Virus record (IMG/VR): IMGVR_UViG_3300046683_000304
Location: 1-43,204 of that record
Direction: 5' to 3' (one strand)
DNA from: a virus
Length of the DNA: 43,204 nt
Below, one piece after another: positions 3,711 through 35,547 of the stretch. The notes beneath the pieces are model-generated. The model worked only from the letters and a program-made list of their open reading frames with translations. It was not told where the DNA came from and ran no database searches. Position 1 is the stretch's first letter. Every line of letters begins with the position of its first letter. The position numbers and the translations under genes are program-made.

Positions 3711-6112
3711 AGTTCCGTCTCCTCTTCGCACTCTTGCTGTGCGGCGTTCTGATATCAAGCGCCGATGCGCGATTTCCTCCTCGCGGAGGGGCTGGAGGTG
3801 GGGGCAGTGGGCATTCCATCGCCTTCACTACGCTCGCTGGGGGCACTATTGGCGGCTCTCCCATCGCCGGAAGTGGCACCTACACGGGAACCGCGCCGAT
3901 CAACCTAAGCGGTGCGACGTGGGGCGGGACGGGGTGTTCTGGAGCCTCGACGCCCGCTGGGTTCAGTGCGGGCTCGGGCACATGGAGCGCGACGTTTACC
4001 GTGCCAGGTGCCGGTGCTGGTGGCTCAACCTGCACGATCGCGATCACGGATGATCTGGGCGACACAGCGACATCACCGGACGTCACGATCGCACCGGCCA
4101 GCGGCGGCGCCCTGTCGTTGCTGACGCTGGACCCTGGCCTCGTGGGGCAGTCCACGGCAGGGTCAGGCGACACGCGTGCCTATTCGATGTGGGCCAACGG
4201 CACGTTCACCGGCTCCACCCCGACCAGCGTCACCAGCGCGTCATGGACAGGCTGCGGCGGCGGCGCGGCGACCGTGACGGGCTTCCACACCAATATCTAC
4301 CCAGCGGGCACGTATGGGGCCAACACGTTCACCGTGGGCGTGAATGCGCCTTCGACGGCCGGGTCGTGCACTCTTACGGTCACGACCAACCTTGGGGATA
4401 CCGCGACAAGTCCCGCCACGACCGTCAGCAATCCGACCGGCAACCCGGATGTCGTCTTCAATGTTCACAATGCCCCTGGCTGGATACATTCGCACAGCTA
4501 TACGGTGGCGAGCGGGCCGCACACCCGCGTCGTCAATGGTGCCGGATGGACGGAATCCACAGGCGTCTGGAATCCAGGCTCCGCGCTCAACGCCTATGAA
4601 CTCAGGTCGGACAGCACCAGCCCATGCACGACGGCGGGGAGTGTAGGGCCGTCCGGCACGGGATCGTCAATTAGTGACGGCACATGCACATGGAAATATC
4701 TCAGCGCTGTTGACTATGTCACGTTCACTGGGTTTTATCTTGATGGGCCTCCGTGGTCAGCTAAGACGTACGTCTACGGGGAACAAATCACGACGAACGT
4801 CAGCAATAACCTTCGTGCGTATGCCTTGGAGTCGGCTGGTGGTGTCTCAGCGAATGCCCTTGCGTTCTGCACATCGACAGTCGCGCCTTCCGGCGTTGGA
4901 GGTGGTTCAGTTGGCTGGGCACAGGGCCTCATAACAACGGCGGATGGCTGCGTATGGGCGTATGTCGGGGACGTGGTCTACTCATCTCAGACAGCGACCA
5001 TACCGTATAACACCTTCACAAATGCGGCTTCGTTTCCAACAAGAACGTCTCATCTGTCTCGGAATTACACCGCAAAACTGTGGAATGATCGCGAGTATCT
5101 GGCGGGAACGAACGGTGAGTTTCCCGGCTATCTTTTGTTTGCCGACCATCAGATGGGCGGTCATTGTTGCGGCGGAGAGACAAGTTACGCTGGATGCGTC
5201 GGGGCGTCTTGGTCAACCGATTGTCCGCTCATCACCATTGAGCCCGCGACTGGAGAAGGGTTCGGGAACACGATAACGCCCTCCGTGCCGCTTACCGGCT
5301 ACGATGCGACGAAAGGAGTTGCCCTGCGTTCCGCCGCGAGTGGCTTGTCGCCGGGATTAATTATTGGCGATTTTAGTATTAAAATCAATGGCCTGCAAAT
5401 AAAGAGCGAGCACAGCGTTGGATTGTGGGCATTCAATTTTGTAACCGTGATGAACAACATCATAGACGGTGGGTGGACCGGGGCGGGAGGAGATGACCCC
5501 AGCGGCTCAGCTCTTTCTCTGGATGTTCCAGATCTCATTGCCAATAACCTTATATTCACGCATGGCACTCAAGGAATTGCCGTGAAATATGGCAGTTTCT
5601 TCGTGCTTAATAATACGATCGTAAATCTGGGCAGCATGGCGAATGTCGCGGCGATCAATTTTTCCTGGACATGGACATGGTTTGCGCCCGTCATAGCGAA
5701 CAACGCCATTTATGGATTCCCACACGGTGGCGCGTATCTGACCGGGGAGACTGCCCCGCACGACTTCGACGCCAGTTCCGCGACAAACGTGACGGACACC
5801 ACCGGGCCGGATACCGGAACCGCCAACTGGGTCGGAGGAGACGTGAACAATGCGATGACCGTCATCACAATTCCAGGGACGACATACAACACATCGGGCG
5901 CGAGCATGTTTGTCTCCCCTGGATCGGATTGGCGCCCCGGTGCGGCGCTGATTGGAGCCGGTGCGGGATACGGCACTTTTGGGTGGGGATGCGCCGCGTC
6001 GTTCAGCGGTGGCTGTGTGCAATCCTCGCACAACTTCGACACGCCGGACTTCCTGGGCACAACGAGGCCTCAAGCGGGAAGCTGGACCGTGGGCGCGGAA
6101 CAACATCCATGA
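3707..6112 (+). CDS. Beta-helix tail-spike protein with signal peptide and Ig-like repeats
   Basis: The ATG at 3707 overlaps the previous stop (ATGA) and gives 801 residues; an in-frame start at 3650 would place 19 unrelated residues before the signal peptide. Residues 1-21 are a Sec signal peptide (core LLFALLLCGVLI, ADA cleavage), followed by RFPPRGG and a Gly run. Two Ig-like repeats follow, each ending in a phrase like LGDTATSP (about residues 120 and 230). From about residue 540 the chain has short polar rungs (NNIIDGG, ANNLIF, LNNTIVN) typical of a right-handed parallel beta-helix. The tail FLGTTRPQAGSWTVGAEQ resembles the end motif of many beta-helix proteins. A receptor-binding or depolymerase spike is likely; substrate unknown. 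Confidence 0.75.
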   Translation: MKFRLLFALLLCGVLISSADARFPPRGGAGGGGSGHSIAFTTLAGGTIGGSPIAGSGTYTGTAPINLSGATWGGTGCSGASTPAGFSAGSGTWSATFTVPGAGAGGSTCTIAITDDLGDTATSPDVTIAPASGGALSLLTLDPGLVGQSTAGSGDTRAYSMWANGTFTGSTPTSVTSASWTGCGGGAATVTGFHTNIYPAGTYGANTFTVGVNAPSTAGSCTLTVTTNLGDTATSPATTVSNPTGNPDVVFNVHNAPGWIHSHSYTVASGPHTRVVNGAGWTESTGVWNPGSALNAYELRSDSTSPCTTAGSVGPSGTGSSISDGTCTWKYLSAVDYVTFTGFYLDGPPWSAKTYVYGEQITTNVSNNLRAYALESAGGVSANALAFCTSTVAPSGVGGGSVGWAQGLITTADGCVWAYVGDVVYSSQTATIPYNTFTNAASFPTRTSHLSRNYTAKLWNDREYLAGTNGEFPGYLLFADHQMGGHCCGGETSYAGCVGASWSTDCPLITIEPATGEGFGNTITPSVPLTGYDATKGVALRSAASGLSPGLIIGDFSIKINGLQIKSEHSVGLWAFNFVTVMNNIIDGGWTGAGGDDPSGSALSLDVPDLIANNLIFTHGTQGIAVKYGSFFVLNNTIVNLGSMANVAAINFSWTWTWFAPVIANNAIYGFPHGGAYLTGETAPHDFDASSATNVTDTTGPDTGTANWVGGDVNNAMTVITIPGTTYNTSGASMFVSPGSDWRPGAALIGAGAGYGTFGWGCAASFSGGCVQSSHNFDTPDFLGTTRPQAGSWTVGAEQHP

Positions 6113-9100
6113 GGCGGCGCACACTACTCGGTGGTGCGTCGGCCCTGGCGCTGTTGACGAAGCCAGCGGCGGCGCGGTTCCCGCACGGGGGGGCGGGTAT
6201 CCCCCCGGCTGTTCTTACGATTACCGGGATCACACTGTCCAACGCCTCATTCACCGGAGGGTCATCGTCCGGAACCGTGGTCGGGAGCATCTCGGTCACG
6301 ATGACAGGCGGGTCGTTCTCGGGGTCGCTCTCGCTAACCGGGGCAGACGCCGCCAGTTTTCAGATCGTAGGCACGAACCTGGAAACAAATGGAGTCGTCG
6401 CGAACGGCAGTTACGCGATCAATATAGTCGCGACGCAGGGTGGGGCAATCGGATCCCCATTTAGTCAGCCTGAAACAATCACAGGCAGCAGTACCTCCAT
6501 AGCTGGCGCATTCTTCCCGACCACAAACGTCCTGGGGGGTGACTACATCTTTGTCGCCCTGCGCTTCACGGGGTCAGCCCCAGCATCGATCACGTCGGCA
6601 ACGTGGAGCGGCGGGGGAGGCAGTGGAACGGTATTGTCGGGGTCATTCTCCGTCACTGGCAAAGTCGCCAATGTCGCGATCTCCACGCCATCTCCTGGCA
6701 GCACGACATCCTATGATCTGGCTCTGACCACGAATCTCGGCACGACCGCGACACTGACCGGGATATCTGTCCTCAAGCCCGTGACCGATATAGCGACCGG
6801 GATATATGGCCCCACGGTAGTCTATTGGGATCTTGACCAGCCGTTCACTCAGAGATTCACGTTTTCCCAAATGGTGATAGCGACCTACTTCACGCGCGGG
6901 CTTTATGGGCCGCTTACAGTAACGTTAACGGACACGGTTGGTGGCTCTGGTGATGCGTTGGCTTTTTCCATGTCGTCCAAGTCTGGAGGGTTCCCTGGTG
7001 GTTTATCAACGGGCTTTAATCTGTGCGTGACCAACTACGGTCATAGCATTGTAGCACAACCCACTTTCGCGGTTACCGTTAACATCAGCAATGGCATAAC
7101 CACGCAGTCACTTGCCGTTACGATCAATAGACCGGCGACGAAGGCGGTGAGTGTTTATGCGTGGATGACGGTGGTGGGTGGCGCCTATTCCGTGCCATTT
7201 ATTACCAACCAACTTGTGCTTGACACCACACGGGCGAATTCCGGCACTACCTGTGACATCGTGCAGTTGTTGACGGGTGATACGGGGATAACATTCACGC
7301 CTGACTCGGGCGGTTTGTTCTCTTTCACAGGCGGCTCCAACGGCACGGTGCAGGTCGATACGGCCAGCCTTATCCCGGCGAACTACGGGCATCATACCTG
7401 CACGATAAAGGCGACAACAGGACCATCTCAAACGCTCGACTTCTGGATCGCGCACACGAAGGCGCCAGTCGTGGCGTGGCAGCCGAATGACATCATTTAC
7501 TCATCGACCCCGGCCACGACTGGCTTTCTCGGGTCCAACCTTATCGGCACGATCGCCGTGTATTCGGACGAACACGGTCAGATCACCACATCGTCTAGCT
7601 TCCGCTTTGAAATCATGTCGGACTCGTCGGGCGCTTTGGAGGTTTGGAATACCGGTCAGGTCTATCTGACGGCCCCGGTTTCTGTTGGCACGATCGACGC
7701 GGTAGTCCGCATCACCAGCCAGAGCGCCATCACGCAACTGATTACGTTGAGCCTACCGGTGCTTGCGGGAACGACACTGGCGTCGTCCAACATCACGCCG
7801 ACGATCAGCGGCGCGCTGACCAATTTCGTGCCCTACGCCAATCCGCAGCGGAACGGCTCAACATCCTTCCCATATGGCACGCCTGTATCGGTAGGCACGT
7901 TCACCGTCGCTGGGTTCAGCAACCCGATCGACTGGGGCAACGTCCAGACCGCGCTCGTGCTCGGGTCGACATTCGATAACGCACAGGTGTTTAACGGCGG
8001 GGATCTGGGCGCACCTGGAAATACCTATAACATCCCGCGCTATATCGTTGCGGGAAGCGGAACTAGCGGCACGATCACCGCGACCAATCTTTCAGCGATC
8101 AACAAGGACACCCCGCAAGTCGATACGCTACGGATCCAATTGACGGATGGCCTCGGCACCTATTGCACGAAGGACATTCCGATCACGGTGTCATGGAAAA
8201 CACCAACGACGCCGACGGTCACGGTAGGGTCTGGGGGTGACTTCGCGACTTTCAGCGACATGGGGTTGGCATTCTGGACGGACTTCAACGCCAACGGAGC
8301 CGCGTCAACGTATGCCGGCACGACGATAAAGGTGCTGGCGGGCGCGGATCCAAGTCTCCCGTGGTACGGCCCTGGAGGCGGCGGGAGCGGGTTCTCCAAT
8401 GGCTGGATGCCTTTCCCGGTTCAATGGCTCAACGACACCAGCACGCAGTGGACGGGCAACGGGACGATCTCCGGCACGACATTGACGGTCAACAGCACGT
8501 CGAGCGGCGCGCTCAAAGCGGGCGACTATCTCACGAGCGGCGTCGGCTCGAACAAAGTCATGATCATGTCCGGGTCGGGCTCGACCTGGACGGTTCACGT
8601 GGGTCCAGACCCAATCAGCCTGACATTGAGCGCTGGGCCAGCGTCGATGACGACGAAGACGCCGCGCACGTACCTGCCCTTCGCGCATACTACACCAGGC
8701 GGTGGCACCCAAGGGGGCCTGATAAAAGCCGGGTATGATACCGACATCAGGGGCTTTGAGATTGACGGCGTCACGCTCGCTTACGATGCCCCTCCCGGTC
8801 CAAATATCGTCCACTACGATACCAACGCGGCTGGAATCTACCTGGTCGCGAATCGAACCGGGAACCTCTGGGTCCAGGATTGCTATATCCACGAGTGTGA
8901 TGTCGGCATTCTGAACGGCGGTCCCGGTAACCAGGTTACCGTCACGAACACCATGATCATGCAATGCGGTAATCACACCGGCACGCAGCACAATATCTAT
9001 ACGGACACAATTGCGTATCTGACGTTCACTAACAATCAGTGCAGCGATACCCTGGTTGGCCACGAATTCAAAACACGCGCCATGCAGGCGATCATCACCG

Positions 9101-10032
9101 ACAATGTTTTCGGGGAAGGTCCGAACGGCGCGGCAAGTTGTCCGATAAATTACACGTTCGGCGGAAACATGCAGTTTCAGCGCAACATCGTGACCAAGAC
9201 CGTTAATGACAACGTGAACCGGAATTCGATCTATCACCAGATCCAAGATGAGCTAAATGGAGGGCAAGGCGACACGGGCGACTCGCTCGGTTGGACGTGG
9301 CCCTACCAAAACAACCTGATAGACTCCTGCACATACTTTAATCTGATCCCGAGGGCGACGGCACCGTTTCAAGATGTCCAGTTATTTACCGTTACCGGTA
9401 CACATCTGATTGACGTCAGCGGGCCTGCGGCAACGGGATTCAATGGAGATCCGATTCGCAACACACCGCTCCCCGCGTTGGTGACGAATAGCGCCTTTGG
9501 GAATTTCTCGTTCCCCACTGAATACGCAAAAGTCTCCGCTGGAGGCGTGGCGCCGACATTTGGTTCCGGCAACACCACGACAACGAACTTCCCCGCTTCC
9601 GCGATTCGGTTGATCGATCCAATTACCGGCACGCCGCCGTTCCGCCTCCCGAAACAAGGTCCGTGCTGGAGCGGGGTCGCGGTTTCGACCATAGGATCGT
9701 CACCCGATGTCTATTATATGTCACTTACGGTGCCGAGCGGTTCGGGCTCTGGGACGAACGTCATCGGCGGGCAACTCACGGCCTATGACCTGAACAAAGT
9801 TCCCATGACTGGCACTACTTATTCATTCGACAACACCTTTACGACGGATAACGCGAGCTTCACGTTCTCGACAACGGCGACTGGCATCCAATTGAAAACC
9901 AGCGGATCGCTCGCGGACGGTCTATACCTTGTGACGCTGCAATGCGTCGGAACGGGTTATGATGGCAGCAGTACGTCTGCCTCGATCACGTCTGTCACTT
10001 CATTCCGTATTTCCGTAGGTAATTATGTCTGA
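6109..10032 (+). CDS. Giant tail-spike protein with Tat-like signal peptide, Ig-like repeats and beta-helix
   Basis: With 1307 residues this is the largest protein of the window. ATG 6109 overlaps the previous stop (ATGA). The N-terminus MRRRTLLGG...AAA followed by RFPHGGAG resembles a twin-arginine signal peptide with an AAA cleavage site after residue 22; the RF-P-G motif is shared with the two preceding proteins. Several Ig-like beta-sandwich repeats cover roughly residues 35-700. A block starting VTVGSGGDFATFSDM (near 705) is the usual entry into a pectate-lyase-like right-handed beta-helix, with asparagine rungs such as VTNTMIMQC and FTNNQC. The last ~110 residues form a final beta domain. 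It probably works as a branched or long spike acting on surface polysaccharide; the enzyme type cannot be told. Confidence 0.75.
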   Translation: MRRRTLLGGASALALLTKPAAARFPHGGAGIPPAVLTITGITLSNASFTGGSSSGTVVGSISVTMTGGSFSGSLSLTGADAASFQIVGTNLETNGVVANGSYAINIVATQGGAIGSPFSQPETITGSSTSIAGAFFPTTNVLGGDYIFVALRFTGSAPASITSATWSGGGGSGTVLSGSFSVTGKVANVAISTPSPGSTTSYDLALTTNLGTTATLTGISVLKPVTDIATGIYGPTVVYWDLDQPFTQRFTFSQMVIATYFTRGLYGPLTVTLTDTVGGSGDALAFSMSSKSGGFPGGLSTGFNLCVTNYGHSIVAQPTFAVTVNISNGITTQSLAVTINRPATKAVSVYAWMTVVGGAYSVPFITNQLVLDTTRANSGTTCDIVQLLTGDTGITFTPDSGGLFSFTGGSNGTVQVDTASLIPANYGHHTCTIKATTGPSQTLDFWIAHTKAPVVAWQPNDIIYSSTPATTGFLGSNLIGTIAVYSDEHGQITTSSSFRFEIMSDSSGALEVWNTGQVYLTAPVSVGTIDAVVRITSQSAITQLITLSLPVLAGTTLASSNITPTISGALTNFVPYANPQRNGSTSFPYGTPVSVGTFTVAGFSNPIDWGNVQTALVLGSTFDNAQVFNGGDLGAPGNTYNIPRYIVAGSGTSGTITATNLSAINKDTPQVDTLRIQLTDGLGTYCTKDIPITVSWKTPTTPTVTVGSGGDFATFSDMGLAFWTDFNANGAASTYAGTTIKVLAGADPSLPWYGPGGGGSGFSNGWMPFPVQWLNDTSTQWTGNGTISGTTLTVNSTSSGALKAGDYLTSGVGSNKVMIMSGSGSTWTVHVGPDPISLTLSAGPASMTTKTPRTYLPFAHTTPGGGTQGGLIKAGYDTDIRGFEIDGVTLAYDAPPGPNIVHYDTNAAGIYLVANRTGNLWVQDCYIHECDVGILNGGPGNQVTVTNTMIMQCGNHTGTQHNIYTDTIAYLTFTNNQCSDTLVGHEFKTRAMQAIITDNVFGEGPNGAASCPINYTFGGNMQFQRNIVTKTVNDNVNRNSIYHQIQDELNGGQGDTGDSLGWTWPYQNNLIDSCTYFNLIPRATAPFQDVQLFTVTGTHLIDVSGPAATGFNGDPIRNTPLPALVTNSAFGNFSFPTEYAKVSAGGVAPTFGSGNTTTTNFPASAIRLIDPITGTPPFRLPKQGPCWSGVAVSTIGSSPDVYYMSLTVPSGSGSGTNVIGGQLTAYDLNKVPMTGTTYSFDNTFTTDNASFTFSTTATGIQLKTSGSLADGLYLVTLQCVGTGYDGSSTSASITSVTSFRISVGNYV

Positions 10033-11110
10033 TCTCGTCAATGTGCGCGAGGCCGGCGCCTGGGAAGGCATCGACTGCACAACGGTCCTCCGAGACATCC
10101 TCGCGAACGGAGCGCCTGGCTTGTTCTTCCCCCCTGGCGACTGGGTCGTGAACGACCTGGAACTCGCGCGGAAAGATAAACCTCGGATCACGATCAAGGG
10201 TGCCGGAGCGGGCGCGACACGGATCAGCACTTCGACGCCCAACGCCGGCATCTTTCTATATACCGCGCCATTCGCCCAAGAGACCTGGATAGAGGTTTCG
10301 TCGCTGGAGATGTGCAATGGGCCGGCATATCCAAGCAACGGCCAGGCGGGCATCGCGATCGCCGTGCGCGGGCCGGTTGGGGATGAGATTGGCAAAGGCA
10401 TCTACCGCGACCTATGGGCAAAAAACTGGTGGTCCGCGATTTACCTTGAGCGGCACAACGACGCGAGTGTGGTCGATCTCACGGCGGAATACTGCGCGCA
10501 TGGGTTATATGCCGTGGACTGCGGCGACCTCGAAGCCGATAGGGTCAAAACGCAGAACGGCCCCGAATGGGCGATCGAAATCCACGGCACATCAGACGGC
10601 CAAGCGACGCACCGGGCCGAGGGCGCACGGCTGGTGGGATGCTCCTCCAATGGCCAGCGCGGCGGCCTACTGATCCAGGATTATGCGTTCGCGCACGTGA
10701 GCGCATCGAGTTTTTCGAGCACGGAGTGGGGTGGGTTGGTGCTCGATGGCGTGCTTGAATCGAGCGTCACGGGCGGCGAGTGGCAGGCTGGCCAGAACGC
10801 CGCCGCGATCCGGCTCACCGATACCTGCGTCCGGAACCGGCTGGTAGGTGTCTTCGCTTACGACAGCGGCCGGGGGGTCGATCTCGCCGGCCGGAACCAT
10901 TCCGTGCTTGGGCTGCACGCAACGGGCAACACCGGAGAGGACGTGACCCTTCAGGCTGCGGATTCCGTCCTTATGGGTGGTCAATTGCTGTCTACCGGCG
11001 CCGCGCACAGTCTGATCGAACTCTCGCCTGCACGGAACAATCAGATCGCCAAATTATGCAACGCCCGTGGCATTCAGCTACTCGCCAACAGTGGCAGTAC
11101 GCAGAGCTAA
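10025..11110 (+). CDS. Pectate-lyase-3-like beta-helix tail-spike protein
   Basis: This 361-residue protein begins with VNVREAGAWEGIDCTTVLRD and continues with GLFFPPGDWVV and ITIKGAGAGATRI, the pattern of the pectate-lyase-3 (Pectate_lyase_3/GH28-like) superfamily seen in phage tail spikes, where the first strand reads N-V-x-x-F/A-G-A followed by a cap helix. The remainder is made of short beta-helix rungs (DLTAEYCAHGLYAVDC, ARLVGCSSNGQRGG). Unlike the four upstream proteins it has no signal peptide. The start overlaps the previous stop by 8 nt. Its stop overlaps, tail to tail, the minus-strand gene at 11107. Role: probable host-surface binding or degrading spike. Confidence 0.75.
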   Translation: MSDLVNVREAGAWEGIDCTTVLRDILANGAPGLFFPPGDWVVNDLELARKDKPRITIKGAGAGATRISTSTPNAGIFLYTAPFAQETWIEVSSLEMCNGPAYPSNGQAGIAIAVRGPVGDEIGKGIYRDLWAKNWWSAIYLERHNDASVVDLTAEYCAHGLYAVDCGDLEADRVKTQNGPEWAIEIHGTSDGQATHRAEGARLVGCSSNGQRGGLLIQDYAFAHVSASSFSSTEWGGLVLDGVLESSVTGGEWQAGQNAAAIRLTDTCVRNRLVGVFAYDSGRGVDLAGRNHSVLGLHATGNTGEDVTLQAADSVLMGGQLLSTGAAHSLIELSPARNNQIAKLCNARGIQLLANSGSTQS

Positions 11111-16172: not shown

Positions 16173-16370
16173 ATGGCTGACATACACCTTCCGACGTGGG
16201 GCGAAATCGAAGCGGCATGCGACGCTGCGGGGCTCACTGTAGCCGCCATGTGCCGCCGGGCCGATATTGACCAGGCGGCTTTCTCGCGATGGAAGGGCGG
16301 CAAAGGCACGCCGTCGCTGCGGACAATCCAAAAGATGGTCGACGCTATTAAGAGAGAGGAAGCGATGTGA
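16173..16370 (+). CDS. Small HTH (XRE/Cro-like) regulator
   Basis: The 65-residue protein is one helix-turn-helix domain: helices around WGEIEAACDAAGLTVAAMC, the turn RADIDQAAFSRWKGG and a final GTPSLRTIQKMVDAI. The pattern (x-LT-x-A-x-MC-x-RA-x-ID-x-A-x-FSRWK) is typical of Cro/C1-like proteins that recognise operator DNA. It is the first gene of the plus operon and overlaps the Mom-like gene, so it probably regulates its own promoter and the divergent operon. In Mu, mom is also preceded by a small overlapping regulator gene (com), though Com is a zinc-finger protein and not an HTH. Confidence 0.75.
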   Translation: MADIHLPTWGEIEAACDAAGLTVAAMCRRADIDQAAFSRWKGGKGTPSLRTIQKMVDAIKREEAM

Positions 16371-16999
16371 TGCACTTCCGCGTCGGTCTAATCGGTGAGG
16401 CGTCTGATCTTGTGGAACAATTCCACTACAGCGGTCGCGTTCCATCCAACATCCAGTGCGTCGGGACATGGCACGCAGACGGCGGCTTGTTCGGTGACCA
16501 AGGCGCTGCGGTTGCCGCGTGTTTCTTCTCGATTCCGCCGACGCGATGGTCCGAGGACGTGTTGGAACTGTCGCGTCTGGTGCGGCACCCCGATGCAGCA
16601 GTTGCGCTCACGGGTCTGATTGGGGCCACCGTTCGGCATCTTTCGCGGCAACGTCTTACTGACCTTCTCGTTTCATTTGCTGACGCCACACACAAACACC
16701 ACGGCGGAATCTATCAGGCTGCGTCGTGGGCCTACGCGGGACAACGTGAACGCTGCATGGATGGTCTTATGATCGATGGTATGTTCGTGCCGGGACGCAA
16801 TGCCAATCATAGGTTCGGAACACGGTCTCCCACGAAACTCCGCGAACGCATGCCGGACCGTTCCATTGAACCTCACTTCGATGAAGGCAAACACCTTTAC
16901 TGGCGTCCACTAAACAAGGCCGGTCGCAGTAAAGCCGAGCGGTTGGGGCTGGATGCGCTTCCATATCCAAAGCCGTTGTTAGTGCGAGAAGCCGCATGA
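16370..16999 (+). CDS. mom: Mom-like DNA adenine-modification protein
   Basis: The 209-residue protein matches the Mom family, which in phage Mu converts adenine in DNA to N6-(methylcarbamoyl)adenine and protects phage DNA from restriction; the fold is GNAT-acetyltransferase-like. Visible signatures, numbered from ATG 16370: FHYSGRVP (H19, Y20), LELSRLV (about 66-72) and SFADATHKHHGGIYQAASW with D105 and Y115. The HY pair and a D and Y ten residues apart correspond to residues reported as essential in Mu Mom. GTG 16367 just before is an alternative start. The host stop overlap with the HTH gene indicates coupling. The call is strong at family level; the exact base product is inference. Confidence 0.8.
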   Translation: MHFRVGLIGEASDLVEQFHYSGRVPSNIQCVGTWHADGGLFGDQGAAVAACFFSIPPTRWSEDVLELSRLVRHPDAAVALTGLIGATVRHLSRQRLTDLLVSFADATHKHHGGIYQAASWAYAGQRERCMDGLMIDGMFVPGRNANHRFGTRSPTKLRERMPDRSIEPHFDEGKHLYWRPLNKAGRSKAERLGLDALPYPKPLLVREAA

Positions 17000-18356: not shown

Positions 18357-18907
18357 CCGCCCCCGATCTCTACACGGACGACGAGACGCGAACGCTAAAG
18401 CCGAAGCGCAACTACGGTGAATGGAATTTGCAGCGCGCGATCGCCGCGTTCCTTTCCAAGGCGCTTCCCGAGACTGCCTACTGGACATCGATCGACATTG
18501 GTTCAGCCGGAGGGCTTCGCGGCGGACAATTGCGTAAAGCCAGAGGCGTGAAGCCCGGTATCGCGGATATCATGGTAGCGTGGCGTGGCATTTCTCATAA
18601 CGTGACCCTCTGGCTTGAGGTCAAGGCAGGCACGCAACTATCAGAGGCGCAGAAGTTGTTCCGCGATCAGATTACCGCAAACGGTCATCGATGGGCGTTG
18701 GTTCGGTCCCCTGAAGATGTAGAAGCGGCCTGCCTGGATGCTCGCATTCCGTTGCGAGCGAACCTTGGCGAAATCCGCCAGCGCATCGATGAACAGAACG
18801 AGCGGCTGCCGGTGAAGCGTAAGCGGGTCGCGCGGAGATCGGGGGAACCGCTCAACAGCATGTCGCTGGCGCAATACCGCAAACATAACGCGCTGAGGCG
18901 GATATGA
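18353..18907 (+). CDS. VRR-NUC domain nuclease
   Basis: This 184-residue protein is a VRR-NUC nuclease of the PD-(D/E)xK superfamily. Residues ~20-125 carry the motif set: E23 region in NYGEWNLQRA, D72 in KPGIADIMV, E89-x-K91 in LWLEVKAG, and Q100 in SEAQKLFRDQ, with GHRWALVRSPEDV closing the fold. A basic tail (about 145-184) may bind DNA. Phage VRR-NUC proteins commonly accompany replication or recombination genes and can cut branched or modified DNA. It lies two genes after the Mom-like gene region and directly before the radical SAM gene (ATGA overlap). Confidence 0.85.
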   Translation: MTAPDLYTDDETRTLKPKRNYGEWNLQRAIAAFLSKALPETAYWTSIDIGSAGGLRGGQLRKARGVKPGIADIMVAWRGISHNVTLWLEVKAGTQLSEAQKLFRDQITANGHRWALVRSPEDVEAACLDARIPLRANLGEIRQRIDEQNERLPVKRKRVARRSGEPLNSMSLAQYRKHNALRRI

Positions 18908-19920
18908 AAGTCCGCCTCACCCAGATCGACGGCAAGATGCCGAACCTCGCGCTGATGAAGCTGTCGCACTGGCACAAGGCGCTCGGGGACGATGTGTATT
19001 TCACGCATCAGGCTCACCGCGACCTGTGGGAGCCGGACTACGACGTCGTCTACGGTTCCGCGATCTTCAAATTCAGTTCCGACAAAACGCAGAGGTTCAT
19101 GACGGAGTGGCCCAGTGCCATTCTTGGAGGAACGGGCACCACCAACGGCCAAACGGTCGAGAGCCTGATGGAAATCTCGGAATACGAGCACTATGACTAT
19201 TCGATCTACCCAGATTTCATGCCGTCACTGGGCTTCACGGAACGCGGATGTCGTCTCTCGTGCAAATTCTGCGTGGTGCCGGCAAAGGAAGGAAAACCGC
19301 GATCAACCAACACAATCGCGGACATCTGGCGCGGCGGTGGCCATCCGAAAACATTGCACCTCCTCGACAACGATTTCTTCGGCCAGCCGGAAGAGTCCTG
19401 GCGCGCGAGGATCGAGGAAATCCGCAGCGGTCAGTTCAAGGTTTGTCTGAGCCAGGGAATCAATGTGCGGCACCTGACGCCAACAGCAGCGGCAGCGATC
19501 GCGACCGTCGATTACCGGGACGACTCGTTCAAGGACAAGCGTCTCTACACGGCATGGGATAACCTGAAGGATGAGGCAGTGTTCTTCCGAGGCGTCGATA
19601 TGCTGGAGGCCGCAGGCATCCCACCGCGCCACCTCATGGCCTACATGCTCGTTGGATATTGGAAGAACGAAACCTGGGAAAGCGTCCTCTACCGGTTCAA
19701 TCGCATGATCGCGCTCGGCATCAGGCCATTTCCGATGGTGTACGGCGACAAACGACGGCTGCTTCCCCTTGGCGGTTACAACGGGCGAGTTGGCCATAAA
19801 CCGCTGTGGGAGTTCGCGAAGTGGGCGATCAAACGCTACTACGAATTGATGCCGTTCGAGGCATTCGATAATAACGCTAAGAAGCGCGATCCCGCTGATT
19901 TGTTTGGGCGTGCAGCATGA
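18904..19920 (+). CDS. Phage radical SAM protein with B12-binding-like N-domain
   Basis: The 338-residue protein has the radical SAM cluster motif C116-x3-C120-x2-C123 (GCRLSCKFC), which binds a [4Fe-4S] cluster and cleaves S-adenosylmethionine. Residues 1-100 (VRLTQIDGKMPNLALMKLS...DYDVVYGSAI) look like a Rossmann-type, B12-binding-like domain without a clear cobalamin His motif. The C-terminal part (LMAYMLVGYW, GIRPFPMVYGDK) is the usual TIM-barrel end. Radical SAM proteins of this type occur in phages and prophages; their substrate is not known to me. Position in an operon with Mom and a nuclease suggests a DNA- or nucleotide-modifying role (inference). Confidence 0.85.
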   Translation: MKVRLTQIDGKMPNLALMKLSHWHKALGDDVYFTHQAHRDLWEPDYDVVYGSAIFKFSSDKTQRFMTEWPSAILGGTGTTNGQTVESLMEISEYEHYDYSIYPDFMPSLGFTERGCRLSCKFCVVPAKEGKPRSTNTIADIWRGGGHPKTLHLLDNDFFGQPEESWRARIEEIRSGQFKVCLSQGINVRHLTPTAAAAIATVDYRDDSFKDKRLYTAWDNLKDEAVFFRGVDMLEAAGIPPRHLMAYMLVGYWKNETWESVLYRFNRMIALGIRPFPMVYGDKRRLLPLGGYNGRVGHKPLWEFAKWAIKRYYELMPFEAFDNNAKKRDPADLFGRAA

Positions 19921-21126: not shown

Positions 21127-21366
21127 ATGGACCGGTTAGTCATAGAAATCACGGGCACGCTGCCAGAGAAGATAAAATACTCGGCTATGGCGGCGGCTGA
21201 AACACTCGCTGATACGCTCGCTTTGGAGTTGCAACAAAACTGGAATATCGCGGCGAAAGTCTCGGTGCGCGCGGTGCGACATAAGGTCGTGGCGGCGAAA
21301 CCGAACGGCGCGGCGGTGGCCGTTGAGACCGTGCATGTGTCGTCAAGCGAGGCGGGACACGGGTGA
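21127..21366 (+). CDS. Small protein, unknown
   Basis: The 79-residue product follows an AAGGA site. It begins with a beta strand (LVIEITGTLPE), continues with a long helix (MAAAETLADTLALELQQNW) and ends in two beta strands. This alpha/beta plan is common among small phage proteins. No function can be assigned. The DHH gene starts 5 nt after the stop. Confidence 0.65.
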   Translation: MDRLVIEITGTLPEKIKYSAMAAAETLADTLALELQQNWNIAAKVSVRAVRHKVVAAKPNGAAVAVETVHVSSSEAGHG

Positions 21367-21370
21367 AAGT

Positions 21371-22204
21371 ATGAACAACACGCTTTGCATTTATCATGCG
21401 TTCTGCGCCGATGGTTTTGGCGCCGCGTGGGTCGTTCGTCGGGCGTTGGGCGATGTGGAATTCTTCGGCGCCAGCTATGGCCAGGAGCCGCCCGATGTAA
21501 CGGGTCGCGACGTGATCATGGTCGATTTCAGCTATAAGCGACCGGTGATCGAAACGATGCGGCGGACGGCCGCCTCAATCCTGATTCTGGATCACCACAA
21601 AACGGCACAAGAGGATCTTCGCGGCTTACCGACGCCTGATGACGAAAACATGGGTGTCGCCGCGTTGTTCGACATGGACCGCAGCGGCGCCGGAATCACG
21701 TGGGACTATTTCAACCCTGGTCAACCTCGTCCGCCGTTGATCAACCGCCTGGAAGACCGTGACCTCTGGCGGTTCAAATTCGCTGATACACGCGCGGTTC
21801 AGGCTAACGTGTTCTCGTACCCATACGAGTTCGATGTTTGGGACCGCCTGATGCAAACGGACCTAAGCGTCCTCCGCATCGAGGGAGAGGCGATCGAACG
21901 CAAACACCACAAGGATGTCGCGGAACTGGTCAGCGCATCCCAACGCACCATGGTCATCGGCGGACATACCGTGCCGGTGGCGAACCTGCCCTACACGCTC
22001 ACGAGCGACGCTGGGCATCTCATGTGCCAGGGCCAGCCGTTCGCGGCCTGCTACATCGACACGCCCAAGGGGCGCACATTCTCGCTCCGTTCAACGGACG
22101 CTGGCGTCGACGTTTCCGAGATCGCCAAGGCTTATGGCGGCGGCGGACATCGGAACGCGGCTGGATTCCTCCGGCCGATCGGGTGGGAGGGCGAAGGGGC
22201 CTGA
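21371..22204 (+). CDS. DHH-family phosphoesterase
   Basis: ATG 21371 gives 277 residues. The DHH motif set is visible: CADGFGAAW (D14), MVDFSY (D52), LDHHKT (D74-H75-H76) and a further D in FDMDRSG, together forming the two-metal site, and the DHHA1 signature GGGGHRNAAGF near residue 258. The family contains nanoRNA, pAp and cyclic-dinucleotide phosphodiesterases and RecJ exonuclease; this short two-domain form is closer to the NrnA/pAp type or to the common phage and bacterial DHH proteins of about 300 residues. Degrading short RNA or a signalling nucleotide is likely; the substrate is not determined by sequence alone. Confidence 0.8.
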   Translation: MNNTLCIYHAFCADGFGAAWVVRRALGDVEFFGASYGQEPPDVTGRDVIMVDFSYKRPVIETMRRTAASILILDHHKTAQEDLRGLPTPDDENMGVAALFDMDRSGAGITWDYFNPGQPRPPLINRLEDRDLWRFKFADTRAVQANVFSYPYEFDVWDRLMQTDLSVLRIEGEAIERKHHKDVAELVSASQRTMVIGGHTVPVANLPYTLTSDAGHLMCQGQPFAACYIDTPKGRTFSLRSTDAGVDVSEIAKAYGGGGHRNAAGFLRPIGWEGEGA

Positions 22205-24333: not shown

Positions 24334-24741
24334 ATGGCACTCGAACAAAAACAGTTGCAGCGGCTGATCCATCTCCTTGGGATGATGGGCAGCGACCACG
24401 ACGGGGAAATCCTCGCCGCCGCGTTGGCGGCACAACGACTGGTAAAGGGAGCCGGAGAAACCTGGGAATCAATCCTGGCGCCACTGTCGCGGGATGAACA
24501 GCGAAGTTGGGCATCGTCCAGCAGGCCGGAACCCGAGCGGCGTTCCTACAAAAAGACAGAACCGGTTTACTTCGAAGAAGTCCGCGCATGTCTGGAACGG
24601 AAGAACCTTCTGTCGCAATGGGAGCGGGATTTTCTTGAATCCCTCCTGACACGAGACTGGCCGAACCTGACAGAAAAGCAACGAGCCATCGTGGACCGGG
24701 TCAAGGAAAAGCTGGCGACCTACGCGGACATGCACTGGTGA
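24334..24741 (+). CDS. Phage replication-associated protein, unknown
   Basis: The 135-residue product has an N-terminal helix block (QLQRLIHLLGMMGSDHDGEI then LAAALAAQRLVKGAG) of a type found in alphaproteobacterial prophages beside primase genes, and a C-terminal block LSQWERDFLESLLTRDWPNL followed by TEKQRAIVDRVKEKL resembling other phage replication helpers. GGGGGTG precedes the ATG. The stop overlaps the GTG of the primase-helicase (GTGA), which ties it to replication. Confidence 0.65.
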   Translation: MALEQKQLQRLIHLLGMMGSDHDGEILAAALAAQRLVKGAGETWESILAPLSRDEQRSWASSSRPEPERRSYKKTEPVYFEEVRACLERKNLLSQWERDFLESLLTRDWPNLTEKQRAIVDRVKEKLATYADMHW

Positions 24742-26888
24742 CAACGCCATGGCACGCCGATACCGGGCAGATCGCGGCCTTCATAGGCGCGCTGTTCCGC
24801 TACGCCGAGGAAGATACCTACATCAGCCTCCGCGCGTTCGACCAGTTCCGCCGCGATGTCCCACCTAAATTCGTGGTCGGCCTCCGCGTCAATGGCAGCA
24901 CGGACAACCTCATCCGCGAGGCCACCATACAGGCCGAGAACGCCGCGCAATCTTCCGACCCCGTCGTGTTCTGCCCGCCGATCGCCACGTTCCACGATAG
25001 CTATAAAGCCGATACCAGCAGCCTCGCCAACGGGCTCAGCCTGTCGATCGAACTGGACGACACGGACCCAGACGAAGCCCGCCTGCGCCTTGAAAGCATC
25101 CTCGGCCCCGTCACCGTCATGGTACGCTCGGGGTCGGACTGGGTCGACCCTGAGACAGGAGAGATCAAGCCCAAGATACATCTGCACTGGCGGCTGAACG
25201 AACCCACGGCGGCGCAGGAGGACCACGCCCGGTTACGCCACGCGCGGGTGCTGGCAGCCATGCTGGTGGGCGCTGACCCCACCGCCAAGCCCGTCGTGCA
25301 CCCCCTGCGCTGGCCTGGATCATGGAACCTGAAAGCCACGCCCAGAATGGCGGACATCGCCATCCTGAACGAAGCGGCGGAGATCGACCTCGCTTCAGTT
25401 CTGGAGCGGCTCGAGGCGGCGGTAGAGGCAGCGGGCCTTACGAAGCATGCCGAGATGCCGGGAGCCTCATCCACGCCGGAAGCACGCCTGTCAGACGTGC
25501 GATCGGCCATGGCCGCGATACCCAACGATGATGACGCCGGGTTTGGCTACGACGCCTGGATCAGGATGGGCATCGCCGTCTGGCGTGCGACCGGCGGCGC
25601 ACCGGAAGGCTTCGAGATATGGGACCGATGGTCCGCGCTGTCGGACAAGTATGAGGTGAAGGAAACGTGCGCCGATGCCTGGCGGCGCATCGGCGCATCC
25701 ATGAAAGGACCAACGCCAGAGCGCACGGTCGGCGCCGGCACCATCTTCTTCCTGGCCGCCAAGGCCGGGTGGGTGCGCCCTTTCCCTTTCAACTCAAGGC
25801 CCAACGGACACGCGGACGATTCGACTTTTGAAGAGGACGACAAAGCCGAGCCGCCGCGCGCCAAAATCCTGTCCATGCGCGACCTGGACGCGTTGCCACC
25901 TCCTGAATGGCTGGTGCGCGACCTGATCCCGGAAAAGTCCATGATCGTGCCGTTTGGCCCTCCGAAATCCGGCAAGACCTTTATCGTCCTGTCGTTTTGC
26001 CTGCATATCACGGCCGGCAAGGAATGGTTCGGCCATGCCGTCAAGCAAGGCGCCGTCGTCTATATCGCTGGCGAAGGAACCGGCGGCCTCTCCCTCCGGC
26101 TGCGGGCCATGCGAAGCAAATACGAGATCGATATCGACGCTCCGTTGTGGATCGTGCCGCGCGCCGTGAACTTCCAGAACCCCACCGAGGTGGACGAGTT
26201 GATACAACTTGTGCGTGCAACAGTCGGAACGCTGGAAGTTGCCGCCGTGGTCCTCGACACCCTCGCCAGGGCCATGCCCGGAGCCGATGAGAACAGCGCG
26301 CAAGAGGTCGGATTGGTCATCGCCGCGTGTGACAGGATGCGCGACGAACTCGACTGCTCAGTCATCCCGATCCACCACTCAGGAAAGGATGTCGCTCGGG
26401 GCGCCAGGGGAACCAGTGCCCTACGGGGCGCGCTGGACACCGCCATTGAGATCAGCGGCACCGGCAAGCGGTCCACAATGACCGTCGTGGACCAGAAAGA
26501 ATCCGAAGCGGGCCAACGTCTGGTGTTCAACATGGAACAGGTTTCGGTGGGAATCGGGCGGTCTTCCTTGGTTCCCATGATCGATGATACGCCTGATGAT
26601 ACGGATGATACGGGCAGCCGCTGGACACCCACCGGGCAGGCCGGGATGGCTCTTCAGGTGCTGAAGGACGCTCTGGCCGGACCTGAGTCCGCCATCCTGC
26701 CGCCCTTGGCGGGATTGCCATCGAGCGATCTGCGCGGGGTCAGTCACGAGGTATGGCGTCGGGGATTTTATGAAAAAATGCCTGGAGAACCACAACCAAA
26801 ACGCAAGCTGGCGTTCTATCGAGCTGTCCAAAAACTGATACAATATGGTCTGGTCGGGGTGCGTGACCCTTGGGTTTGGTTGACATGA
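24738..26888 (+). CDS. Primase-helicase: PrimPol-like, PriCT and RecA-like ATPase domains
   Basis: The 716-residue protein starts with GTG 24738. Residues ~1-220 look like an archaeo-eukaryotic-type primase/polymerase (SIELDD 103-108, HLHW 148-151, VHPLRWPGSWNLK about 187-199). Residues ~250-345 match the PriCT_2 linker (YDAWIRMGIAVWRATGG, WDRWSALSDKY). Residues ~385-640 are a RepA/DnaB-like RecA-fold ATPase with Walker A GPPKSGKT (407-414) and Walker B VVLDT (504-508), then HHSGKD. It probably primes and unwinds phage DNA. TGATAC repeats run into its 3' end, where they encode a DDT repeat (residues ~616-625), next to the proposed origin. Confidence 0.85.
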   Translation: MTTPWHADTGQIAAFIGALFRYAEEDTYISLRAFDQFRRDVPPKFVVGLRVNGSTDNLIREATIQAENAAQSSDPVVFCPPIATFHDSYKADTSSLANGLSLSIELDDTDPDEARLRLESILGPVTVMVRSGSDWVDPETGEIKPKIHLHWRLNEPTAAQEDHARLRHARVLAAMLVGADPTAKPVVHPLRWPGSWNLKATPRMADIAILNEAAEIDLASVLERLEAAVEAAGLTKHAEMPGASSTPEARLSDVRSAMAAIPNDDDAGFGYDAWIRMGIAVWRATGGAPEGFEIWDRWSALSDKYEVKETCADAWRRIGASMKGPTPERTVGAGTIFFLAAKAGWVRPFPFNSRPNGHADDSTFEEDDKAEPPRAKILSMRDLDALPPPEWLVRDLIPEKSMIVPFGPPKSGKTFIVLSFCLHITAGKEWFGHAVKQGAVVYIAGEGTGGLSLRLRAMRSKYEIDIDAPLWIVPRAVNFQNPTEVDELIQLVRATVGTLEVAAVVLDTLARAMPGADENSAQEVGLVIAACDRMRDELDCSVIPIHHSGKDVARGARGTSALRGALDTAIEISGTGKRSTMTVVDQKESEAGQRLVFNMEQVSVGIGRSSLVPMIDDTPDDTDDTGSRWTPTGQAGMALQVLKDALAGPESAILPPLAGLPSSDLRGVSHEVWRRGFYEKMPGEPQPKRKLAFYRAVQKLIQYGLVGVRDPWVWLT

Positions 26889-27038
26889 CAAAACGAACCG
26901 TATCACCGTATCATTGGCGTATCATGGCGTATCACTGATACTGACTCCAGGCGTATCATTCACCGTATCAAAATCCCCCCTTTAGGGGGGATTGATACGG
27001 GATGATACGGGTGCGACTTCGGGATCGTCAGGGTATCA
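26585..27038 (+). repeat. GTATCA/TGATAC iteron cluster (proposed replication origin)
   Basis: Seven GTATCA copies on the plus strand (26900, 26908, 26919, 26929, 26953, 26965, 27033) and six TGATAC copies in the opposite orientation (26585, 26597, 26606, 26936, 26993, 27003) were counted. Spacings of the first direct copies are 8, 11 and 10 nt, near one helical turn. GTATCA-C-TGATAC (26929-26941) is a perfect palindrome. The array starts inside the primase-helicase gene and reaches the ribosome site of the next gene. Repeats next to the primase suggest an origin bound by a phage initiator, or an autoregulatory operator. No function has been shown. Confidence 0.75.
26963..27000 (+). other. GC-rich hairpin within the iteron cluster
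   Basis: CCGTATCA-AA-ATCCCCCC, loop TTTA, GGGGGGAT-TGATACGG forms a 16-bp stem with a 2-nt bulge, so two iterons are part of the stem. No U-run follows, so a terminator is unlikely. A hairpin of this kind could be a nick or priming site, or stabilise an unwound origin. Confidence 0.7.
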
Positions 27039-27056
27039 TGGAAAGTGGAGAGTGAA

Positions 27057-27716
27057 ATGGACATCTTACCGCAGGGCCGCAAACTCCGGACCCCCGAGGA
27101 CTACGACCGCTTCCGCATGGCCATGGTCTCGGTCGACCAGGCGTTCTTCGCCAGCGAGACCAAATGGGGGGTCGGACGCCTGGAAAGGATTGTAAGCCTA
27201 TCAACCCTACAAGCCTACCGGCGCGGCTGGGATGCCTACCGAGTGGCGCTGGACGACTGCGACGGCGAAGCCCTGGAGCAGATCGGCCCCAAGATGATCG
27301 CCGCGCTCGCGTTCATGGACGCGGAAGCGTCGGCGGCTGGCCATCAGCCGCTCGCTCCCGACACCTGGGAGCATGCTCTACCGGACGGACGCGTTCTCGT
27401 GGTATGTCGGACCAGCGCTGAAGCGTCCGCCGTCCTGCGTGCCTCCAAGGGCCAGGAAACCGCATCATACGAAACCACCCTCCCGCCCGATCTCGCCGTC
27501 ACCGTCCGGAACCAACACGAAGGCCGCGCGCTCACGGTTGTCACCATGGCTGAAGTCGCGCGTCTGCTGACGATGGCGGAGGGGAAAGTCGCGGGGGTCG
27601 AATGGGAAGGGACTGCAACCTACAGTGGCAGACAAATGGATGAAGGCGCGGCGGCGGACCTCGTACGAACTGGCTACCCTCTCCCCGAGCCCATCGCCCC
27701 GGATCTTGGGTTTTGA
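27057..27716 (+). CDS. Conserved phage protein, unknown
   Basis: ATG 27057 with GGAGAG upstream is chosen over a GTG at 27045. The 219-residue product has a helical N-terminus (RTPEDYDRFRMAMVSVDQAF), a middle LQAYRRGWDAYRVALDDCDG then IGPKMIAALAFMDAEASAAG of a kind common in alphaproteobacterial prophages next to replication genes, and a beta-rich end. It begins right after the iterons. No function is known to me. It converges with the minus-strand XRE gene across a terminator hairpin. Confidence 0.65.
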   Translation: MDILPQGRKLRTPEDYDRFRMAMVSVDQAFFASETKWGVGRLERIVSLSTLQAYRRGWDAYRVALDDCDGEALEQIGPKMIAALAFMDAEASAAGHQPLAPDTWEHALPDGRVLVVCRTSAEASAVLRASKGQETASYETTLPPDLAVTVRNQHEGRALTVVTMAEVARLLTMAEGKVAGVEWEGTATYSGRQMDEGAAADLVRTGYPLPEPIAPDLGF

Positions 27717-32290: not shown

Positions 32291-32761
32291 GTGTCGCTCG
32301 GTCGCGGTCGCCCATCGACATATAATGCTGATATCGCGTCTGAAATATGCCGACGAATGGCGGAAGGCGAGAGTTTGAACGAGATCAGCCGATCAGAAGG
32401 AATGCCGCCGGCCAGCACTGTTCGTGGGTGGGTCTTGGACGATCAAGAGGGATTTTCCGCGCGATACGCGCGTGCGCGTGAACTTCAGGCTGAGTATTGG
32501 GCTGATGAAATTCTTGAAATCTCGGATGATGGCGTGAACGATTGGATGGAACGCGCGTTGGCAAATGGGCAGACTGAGGCTGTCGTTAATCACGAGCATG
32601 TAACGCGCTCTCGGTTGCGCGGAGACAGTCGGAAGTGGTTGCTGGCTAAACTTCGTCCTGGAACCTATGGCGACAAAATCCAACATGCTAATGCGGCTGG
32701 TGACGGGAATGCCAGTATCAACGTCTATCAATGGGCCAAACCTGAAGAGGAGTCCAAGTGA
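32291..32761 (+). CDS. terS: Terminase small subunit (Sf6 gp1-like)
   Basis: GTG 32291 with GAGG upstream gives 156 residues. The N-terminus GRPSTYNADIASEICRRMAE, then GESLNEISRSEGMPPASTVR and YARARELQAEYWADEI is the HTH and coiled-coil region of Sf6-type small terminase subunits, which form rings that recognise phage DNA for packaging. The C-terminal half is the typical variable end. Six small genes separate it from the large subunit, while in many phages these two are adjacent. Confidence 0.85.
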   Translation: MSLGRGRPSTYNADIASEICRRMAEGESLNEISRSEGMPPASTVRGWVLDDQEGFSARYARARELQAEYWADEILEISDDGVNDWMERALANGQTEAVVNHEHVTRSRLRGDSRKWLLAKLRPGTYGDKIQHANAAGDGNASINVYQWAKPEEESK

Positions 32762-34046: not shown

Positions 34047-34234
34047 TGGAGCGTGAGATTAACCTCTCCACGCTTCCGATGACTGGCGATTTAGAAGCGG
34101 CGCTGAAGGCTGAATTGTTGGCCTCTGGCTTTCCTGAAGACTTCGCAAACCAAGCCGCGCATCAAATGGCTAAGGATGCGAAGGTGCAGGCGGAAGTCAG
34201 GCGTTTAGGCACAACTTGCCCATCAACCGGATAA
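34046..34234 (+). CDS. Small protein, unknown
   Basis: The 62-residue product shares one base with the previous stop and overlaps the large terminase by 19 nt. It has one helix (LEAALKAELLASGFPEDF) and another (AAHQMAKDAKVQAEVRRL). It may be a packaging accessory, but that is inference. Confidence 0.55.
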   Translation: MEREINLSTLPMTGDLEAALKAELLASGFPEDFANQAAHQMAKDAKVQAEVRRLGTTCPSTG

Positions 34235-35547
34235 TCCTGCCGTTCGCTCCGCGCGAGTGGCAGATTCCCCTCATCGAAGACCGCAAGCGATCCATGGTCG
34301 CGGTCGTGCATCGTCGGGCCGGCAAGTCGACCGCGTTCGTGTGGCGTGGATTGAAGAAGGCGCTCACCGAGGACCGGGCACACATCCCCGAACGCCGCCG
34401 CAACCTGAAGGCGGATCCGCCTCGCGTTGTTCATGTTCTGCCGGCGCAGGTTATGTGGCAACGAACGGGATTGTGGGACAAGGTCGCCAGAGCGGCAGAG
34501 ATGATCCCCGGCGCTGTGGCATTTAAGTCGGTGCTCCGCGTCGAACTTCCGAATGGCGGGATTTATCAATGTGGGGGTATGGACAAGCCTGATTCTTGGC
34601 GTGGTGGCTACGCCGACGAGGTGGTCGAGGACGAGGCAGACGACGTTATCGCATCCGGGCTCGACATGGTTGTTGAACCGATGCTGGCGGACTACAGCGG
34701 GTCTCGTATCAAGATCGGCACCCCAAAGGGCAATGGGCGCCTTGCCGCTGCTTATGACGCCGCCGGCCATGACGATAACTCCTCACGATACCTCCTTCCC
34801 TGGCAAGAGACCGGCGCGCTCGATACGGCCCAGGTGCAGCGCCTTCGCGAAACACTTGACGAGGAAGAGTTCGCGCAGGAGTTGGAATGCAGCTTCAACG
34901 CCCCAAATTCCGGCTCCTACTACGGCCGCTGGCTCGATGACGCACTGAAGCAGGAGCGCATTACCCGCGTCACCTATGACCCCAAGCTGCCGGTCTACAC
35001 GTGCTGGGATCTTGGTATGGACGACTACACCGCGATCTGGTGGTTCCAGAGGTCACCGGGCGGCGAGTGGCGGTGGTTGGAGTATTTCGAGGACAACCGC
35101 AACGGCTTGGATTATTATGCGAGGATCATCCACCAGAAGCCATACGTTTACGGGCGCCACTTCCTACCGCACGACGTCGAGGTGCAAGAGATGGGCACGG
35201 GAAAATCGCGCCGCGCGATGCTTCAAGGTTTGAATGTGCGACCGATTAAAGTCGTTCCGGCTGCCAATCCATCTGAGCGCGTCTCAGCCATGCGCGCGAT
35301 CTTGCCGCGCTCGTTCTTCGATTCAAAGGGATGCGAGATCGGATTGAAACGTCTTCGTGCCTATCGCCGGCAGTGGAACGAGCACATGGGCGTGTGGCGC
35401 CCTGTGCCGATCCACGATGAAGCGAGCCACGGCGCGGACGCGGCGGGCGTTGGTGTTCAGGGCTCGAACGACCCAGACCGCGAGGTTTTTACCCCACACG
35501 TCTCCGCCTTCCGCCAGCCGACACGCGGGATGGGGTTGTTGGGTTAG
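34216..35547 (+). CDS. terL: Terminase large subunit
   Basis: The 443-residue protein has TTG 34216 as the only start compatible with the fold: the in-frame stop at 34171 lies upstream and the next ATG would remove the Walker A region. It has a Walker A-like HRRAGKST (32-39), Walker B-like region GYADEVVEDEAD (131-142), and nuclease motifs CWDLGMDDYTAIWW (about 263) and HDEASHGADA (near residue 400). The enzyme translocates DNA into the procapsid and cuts the concatemer. It overlaps its upstream gene by 19 nt and ends convergent, by 4 nt, with the minus-strand gene at 35544. Confidence 0.9.
   Translation: MPINRIILPFAPREWQIPLIEDRKRSMVAVVHRRAGKSTAFVWRGLKKALTEDRAHIPERRRNLKADPPRVVHVLPAQVMWQRTGLWDKVARAAEMIPGAVAFKSVLRVELPNGGIYQCGGMDKPDSWRGGYADEVVEDEADDVIASGLDMVVEPMLADYSGSRIKIGTPKGNGRLAAAYDAAGHDDNSSRYLLPWQETGALDTAQVQRLRETLDEEEFAQELECSFNAPNSGSYYGRWLDDALKQERITRVTYDPKLPVYTCWDLGMDDYTAIWWFQRSPGGEWRWLEYFEDNRNGLDYYARIIHQKPYVYGRHFLPHDVEVQEMGTGKSRRAMLQGLNVRPIKVVPAANPSERVSAMRAILPRSFFDSKGCEIGLKRLRAYRRQWNEHMGVWRPVPIHDEASHGADAAGVGVQGSNDPDREVFTPHVSAFRQPTRGMGLLG

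Follow-up and report, generated by a model that had tools for sequence, protein, structure and literature searches.

A candidate phage replication origin at the 3′ end of a primase-helicase gene, with iterons that co-vary with the C-terminal winged helix of the helicase

The primase-helicase gene and the adjoining repeats

The DNA analysed (the window) is the entire virus record IMGVR_UViG_3300046683_000304, 43,204 bases in length. At positions 24738–26888 on the plus strand lies a gene for a primase-helicase of 716 aa, comprising an N-terminal primase region, PriCT_2, an AAA_25 ATPase and a C-terminal winged helix. The protein matched AAA_25 (2.7e-40) and PriCT_2 (2.8e-16) in Pfam and DNA polymerase/primase in PHROG (2.6e-52), and the profile of the helicase family matched the RSF1010 RepA structure 1g8y (E=7e-9). 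The codons of the C-terminal domain (26634–26885, plus strand) encode a predicted winged helix, which is a putative iteron-binding domain. An AlphaFold2 model of this domain (110 residues) had a pLDDT of 83 and showed its elements in winged-helix order, with a predicted recognition helix at residues 686–702 (codons 26793–26843, plus strand) and a predicted wing formed by residues 706–709 and 712–715. The best Foldseek matches to the model were CAP/CRP-type winged-helix proteins, none of them significant (best E 0.076), and a comparison of the domain sequence with solved structures found no meaningful match. The model of the full-length protein was poor (pLDDT 57) and was used only for the low-confidence linker, in which residues 621–628 are located.

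Downstream, the next gene (27045–27716, plus strand; possible ATG at 27057) encodes 223 aa without a family match. Upstream of the replication gene are genes for a Mom-like DNA modification protein (16367–16999), a radical SAM protein (18904–19920) and a DHH phosphoesterase (21323–22204), which are possible DNA modification or counter-defence genes. Five long ORFs without PHROG matches occupy 745–11110, the longest encoding 1453 aa (5671–10032).

The end of the primase-helicase gene and the gap behind it are filled with copies of GTATCA/TGATAC. The original prediction had described thirteen copies in 454 bases; the density was confirmed, but the number was not, as 14 exact copies were found within 26585–27038. 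Four of these are intragenic and all on the minus strand, reading TGATAC (26585, 26597, 26606 and 26836). The remaining ten lie between the stop codon and the next gene, in an intergenic array (26900–27038) that uses both orientations, with copies at 26900, 26908, 26919 and 26929 (plus), 26936 (minus), 26953 and 26965 (plus), 26993 and 27003 (minus) and 27033 (plus). This array begins 12 bp past the helicase stop codon (26886–26888) and stops just upstream of the next gene. The heptamer CGTATCA accounts for 11 of the 14 copies, and no copies with a single mismatch were present within the array. Inside clusters, adjacent copies are 7–12 bp apart, and for adjacent same-strand copies the spacing is 8–12 bp, close to one helical turn. 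The AT content over the array is 0.45–0.55 compared to 0.41 for the whole record, and a pronounced AT-rich block is absent.

Because the window is the whole record, the hexamer could be counted across it. It occurred 25 times against 11.4 ± 3.2 in dinucleotide shuffles, none of which reached 25. The hexamer is not equally frequent elsewhere, since only 11 of the 25 copies lie outside 26585–27038, scattered over ~42.7 kb. With a Markov expectation of 0.13 copies per 500 bp (log10 p ~ -17.5, corrected for k-mers and positions), the array is the top 6-mer cluster of the record. It also contains one hairpin that is not itself made of iterons (26972–26993), whose arms AATCCCCCC and GGGGGGATT enclose a TTTA loop, placed between the facing iterons 26965–26970 (plus) and 26993–26998 (minus).

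Related loci and covariation with the C-terminal domain

We examined 110 loci with RepA-like (AAA_25) helicase genes, a set that includes near-identical contigs and reduces to 39 after de-replication. A significant repeat cluster was detected near the helicase gene in 75 of the 110 loci, and at its 3′ end in 69 of these 75. The position is shared and the motif is not: CGTATCA, CGGGACA, CCGGACA, CGTGACA, CTACAAA, TATAAA and others were found at helicase 3′ ends. Among close relatives, all viral contigs, dense arrays of CGTATCA (L003), CGGGACA (L002) and CCGGACA (L006) occupy the same place. More distant RepA-like helicases carry GCGGAGAT, CGTGACA, ACTACAAA, CGGTACA, GGTTCA or CGGAAGTA at the same position; this set includes phages recorded from Rhizobium, Sinorhizobium, Roseobacter, Idiomarinaceae and Alteromonas, as well as the partial EBPR siphovirus 5. 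Arrays at helicase 3′ ends were also seen in many metagenomes. The genes downstream of the arrays vary among phages, leaving the helicase as the sole common neighbour; the RHH protein, which had been suggested as a binder, is therefore not needed. In L003 and L006 the primase part of the protein is unlike that of the present one, and the ATPase, winged helix and array are common to all three. This kept origin layout beside differing primase parts (24738–26888 compared with L003 and L006) points to primase swapping.

In the relatives, most arrays close with a hairpin flanked by facing iterons; its loop is TTTA or TATA, and its stem varies (for example AAATGCCCCC, CACTCC, CACCCC, CCCCTTTC or AAACCC). 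L002 has another, AT-rich stem and another loop at the corresponding place. Stem pairs were counted on stems that had been required to pair, so that the counts show variation and are not an independent test of covariation. A strict expression for the CCT-W-GG core matched 26 of 39 arrays compared to 108 of 2010 control windows (5%). The strict form of the hairpin is enriched in arrays, but it is not universal.

All viral and genome contigs were searched for GGGACA-hairpin(TTTA)-TGTCCC, a DNA-only pattern that draws on no protein data. The 3′ end of a RepA-like helicase gene was located within -100 to +700 bp of the match in most of the matching contigs (22 of 26 bacterial, 50 of 72 viral), many of the viral matches being near-identical to one another. 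Matches without a helicase are explained in part by cut contigs or by arrays inside the coding end. The bacterial matches include Alpha-, Beta- and Gammaproteobacteria, a deltaproteobacterial bin and a Synergistetes bin; a first protein scan of genome contigs had found no relatives. The GTATCA version of the pattern was present in three contigs, all already-known relatives.

Arrays were absent beside the gene in a closely related helicase subgroup (L099–L120), whose origin must lie elsewhere or work differently, and beside the more distant helicases of Caulobacter RW, Microcystis Mae-JY30, Gordonia Gustav, mycobacteriophage Vortex and Rhodococcus Shagrat. Other arrangements were also observed. 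In L016 and L022, GGGACA and CGGACA arrays do not adjoin the helicase but lie 0.85–1.6 kb further downstream. A marine group (L017, L047, L054, L066 and L090) has a second conserved element, ~TTTCAATGGGTTA, which lies between iteron blocks no more than 260 bp 3′ of the helicase and may be an unwinding site or a target for a host factor. In L129, L147, L189, L195, L196, L221 and L224, the iterons and hairpin lie inside the helicase coding end, giving protein-tail repeats such as GQGDMGQGQTHPFRG.

Across the 39 non-redundant loci, we asked whether similar motifs go with similar proteins. In partial Mantel tests, the motif correlated with the C-terminal domain when the ATPase was controlled for (r=0.215, p=0.0002), a modest partial correlation, and not with the ATPase when the C-terminal domain was controlled for (r=0.02, p=0.28). 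We then scored the 419 columns that vary over the last 480 residues, with overall identity regressed out. The five columns most associated with the motif correspond to residues 691, 695, 712, 694 and 693, and matrix permutation gave p=0.0005 both for the maximum and for enrichment in the recognition helix. Since four of them (691, 693, 694 and 695) belong to the predicted recognition helix and the fifth to the predicted wing (712–715), the C-terminus of the primase-helicase itself is the likely reader of the iterons. Within the family of the present protein, FYR accompanies GTATCA (this record and L003), FQR accompanies GGGACA (L002 and L013) and FVR accompanies CGGACA (L006), in domains that are otherwise similar. 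A one-residue code, in which the residue between F and R sets the iteron, appeared perfect in the first set of loci and failed later. Among the GGGACA arrays located by the DNA pattern, some accompany N, S, R, G or still other residues at this position, and the code was therefore replaced by covariation of the whole helix.

Alternative explanations for the repeats

The original prediction named a large operator as one of two readings of the array. An operator as its main function, bound by a phage regulator or by an autorepressing helicase to control transcription into the downstream genes, seems improbable to us. The array does occupy the intergenic gap ahead of 27045, and weak promoter-like matches overlap the iterons, but in other phages the arrays stay 3′ of the helicase in front of differing genes, and the motif changes follow the helicase C-terminus. 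Moreover, 10–16 copies together with a hairpin between facing iterons would be unusual for an operator, and the copies inside the coding end would have no obvious use. Operator activity is possible as a second function, with the comparative evidence favouring an origin.

It is very unlikely that the hairpin works as a transcription terminator, with the surrounding repeats incidental. Its stem is GC-rich and is followed by a short T run on the minus strand; however, no T run is present on the plus strand, from which the helicase is transcribed. In addition, the stem in L002 is AT-rich, the loop reads TTTA in either orientation to the gene, and facing iterons flank the hairpin in most families. 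At gathering score, Rfam gave no match in any of the 14 relatives that were compared, and its matches in this record stayed below threshold.

We give an equally slight chance to a partition centromere or packaging site, either of which can be a cluster of short repeats in phages. The genes for the small and large terminase subunits (32291–32761 and 34216–35547) are 5–8 kb away, the proteins scanned included no ParA/ParB-like neighbour, and the covariation is with a helicase domain.

The coding copies raise the question of whether protein or DNA dictates the repeats. Three minus-strand copies (26585–26611) lie in the linker that precedes the winged helix and translate to D-D-T-P-D-D-T-D-D-T, as the original prediction had stated; besides these three coding copies, which were confirmed, there is an isolated fourth at 26836–26841 (minus strand), inside winged-helix codons, which may be fortuitous. 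The linker of L003 has TGATAC copies as in this record, and that of L006 has CGGACA copies instead, with the protein reading DDNPDPDMAG compared to DDTPDDTDDT. Because the spelling of the linker copies shifts along with that of the array, the DDT repeat is probably dictated by selection at the DNA level for additional iterons in the linker, and the intragenic copies would be extra iterons embedded in its codons. The reverse, that the repeats are a by-product of coding DDT-P-DDT-DDT or of low-complexity expansion, is scarcely credible given that ten copies lie outside coding sequence and occupy both strands, and that the linker repeats of relatives switch to their own iteron with the protein changing along.

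Proposed origin function and comparison with known systems

Collectively, the conserved position of the array, the turnover and covariation of its motif with the winged helix, the hairpin, and the outcome of the DNA-only search strongly support the reading as an iteron-type origin. We consider it very probable that the array is a replication origin of the phage, bound by the adjoining primase-helicase via its own C-terminal winged helix; origin activity is inferred here from anatomy and from known systems. GC skew, which had been proposed as a check, gave no support for an origin, with its minimum near 15.5 kb and no turn at 27 kb. Similarly, the circular phage CRP-811 showed no turn at its array, and no mapped replication origin for phage 16-3 was found in the open-access literature.

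In the proposed mechanism, the winged helix of the primase-helicase would bind the CGTATCA iterons, which would concentrate the RepA-type ATPase and load it at the site without a separate loader. The hairpin between the last facing iterons may be exposed when the duplex opens, or be extruded, and could then provide the fused primase with a site of entry or priming. This role of the hairpin, suggested by the anatomy of the site, is the least certain step, and its chances of being right are about even.

Parts of this arrangement are known from other replicons. The alpha protein of P4 is a primase and a helicase in one, and its C-terminal winged helix binds the origin (ori/crr) by reading iterons; a winged helix is predicted at the same end here (pLDDT 83 model); in contrast, the P4 helicase is of the SF3 class and its iteron is unrelated to the present one. 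Alpha and its cognate ori are mentioned in PMC6092414. The pRN1 protein ORF904 and that of phage BIP-1 are likewise primase-helicase-winged-helix proteins, with a stem-loop just 3′ of the gene that is essential in pRN1 and is kept in shape, not in sequence (PMC4234260). However, their helicase is of the SF3 class and pRN1 uses a large stem-loop of ~100 nt without iterons, compared to an AAA_25/RepA-class helicase and iterons here.

In SaPIs and PICIs, a self-loading initiator helicase, in some cases fused to a primase, recognises iterons directly downstream of its gene through its C-terminal domain (PMC7581432, PMC6092414). In the present loci the repeat clusters lie 3′ of the helicase gene (69 of 75) and covary with its C-terminal domain, which may reflect a comparable arrangement. 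In contrast, SaPI Rep belongs to the DUF927 or D5/Primase_Cterm class, and the present protein to the RepA/AAA_25 class (AAA_25 and PriCT_2 being its only Pfam matches). The PICI origin has two iteron sets around an AT-rich region, an arrangement said to be in 'no other known bacterial replicon' (PMC6092414); here, the clearest conserved landmark is the hairpin between facing iterons, and a similar layout is seen in ordinary phages.

The oriV of RSF1010 pairs a RepA-class helicase and iterons with two hairpins, ssiA and ssiB, that are recognised by the primase (PMC4234260). The helicase here is apparently of the same class (1g8y, E=7e-9; AAA_25), but there is one hairpin rather than two, and the tasks of the separate RepC, RepA and RepB′ would all be performed by one polypeptide; no homologue of RepC, the iteron-binding protein, was recognised among the proteins scanned, a subset of the ORFs. 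Finally, the DNA-binding domain of Vibrio cholerae PLE RepA covaries with its origin and the modules swap (PMC8263062). That protein is a RepA_N initiator with an N-terminal DNA-binding domain and without a fused primase-helicase, unlike the C-terminal domain and fusion described here.

The principle is thus known from SaPI/PICI, P4 and pRN1, and what appears new is the RSF1010-RepA-type helicase with an iteron-hairpin architecture. On balance, we favour the view that the arrays represent a widespread origin family, apparently undescribed in the open-access literature, of phages and other mobile elements. Its members would combine a primase, an RSF1010-RepA-type helicase and a winged helix in one protein, with a diversifying iteron array and a TTTA hairpin at the 3′ end of the gene that encodes it, and co-evolution of recognition helix and iteron would create mutually distinct replicons in related phages. 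Origins are known experimentally in few phages. If the proposal is correct, the origins of many phages with RepA-like primase-helicases, together with the domain that recognises them, would be readable from sequence. With the natural domain/iteron pairs, it would be possible to test directly how replicon specificity evolves, and likewise incompatibility between co-infecting phages. The layout described as unique to PICIs (PMC6092414) would then extend to phages.
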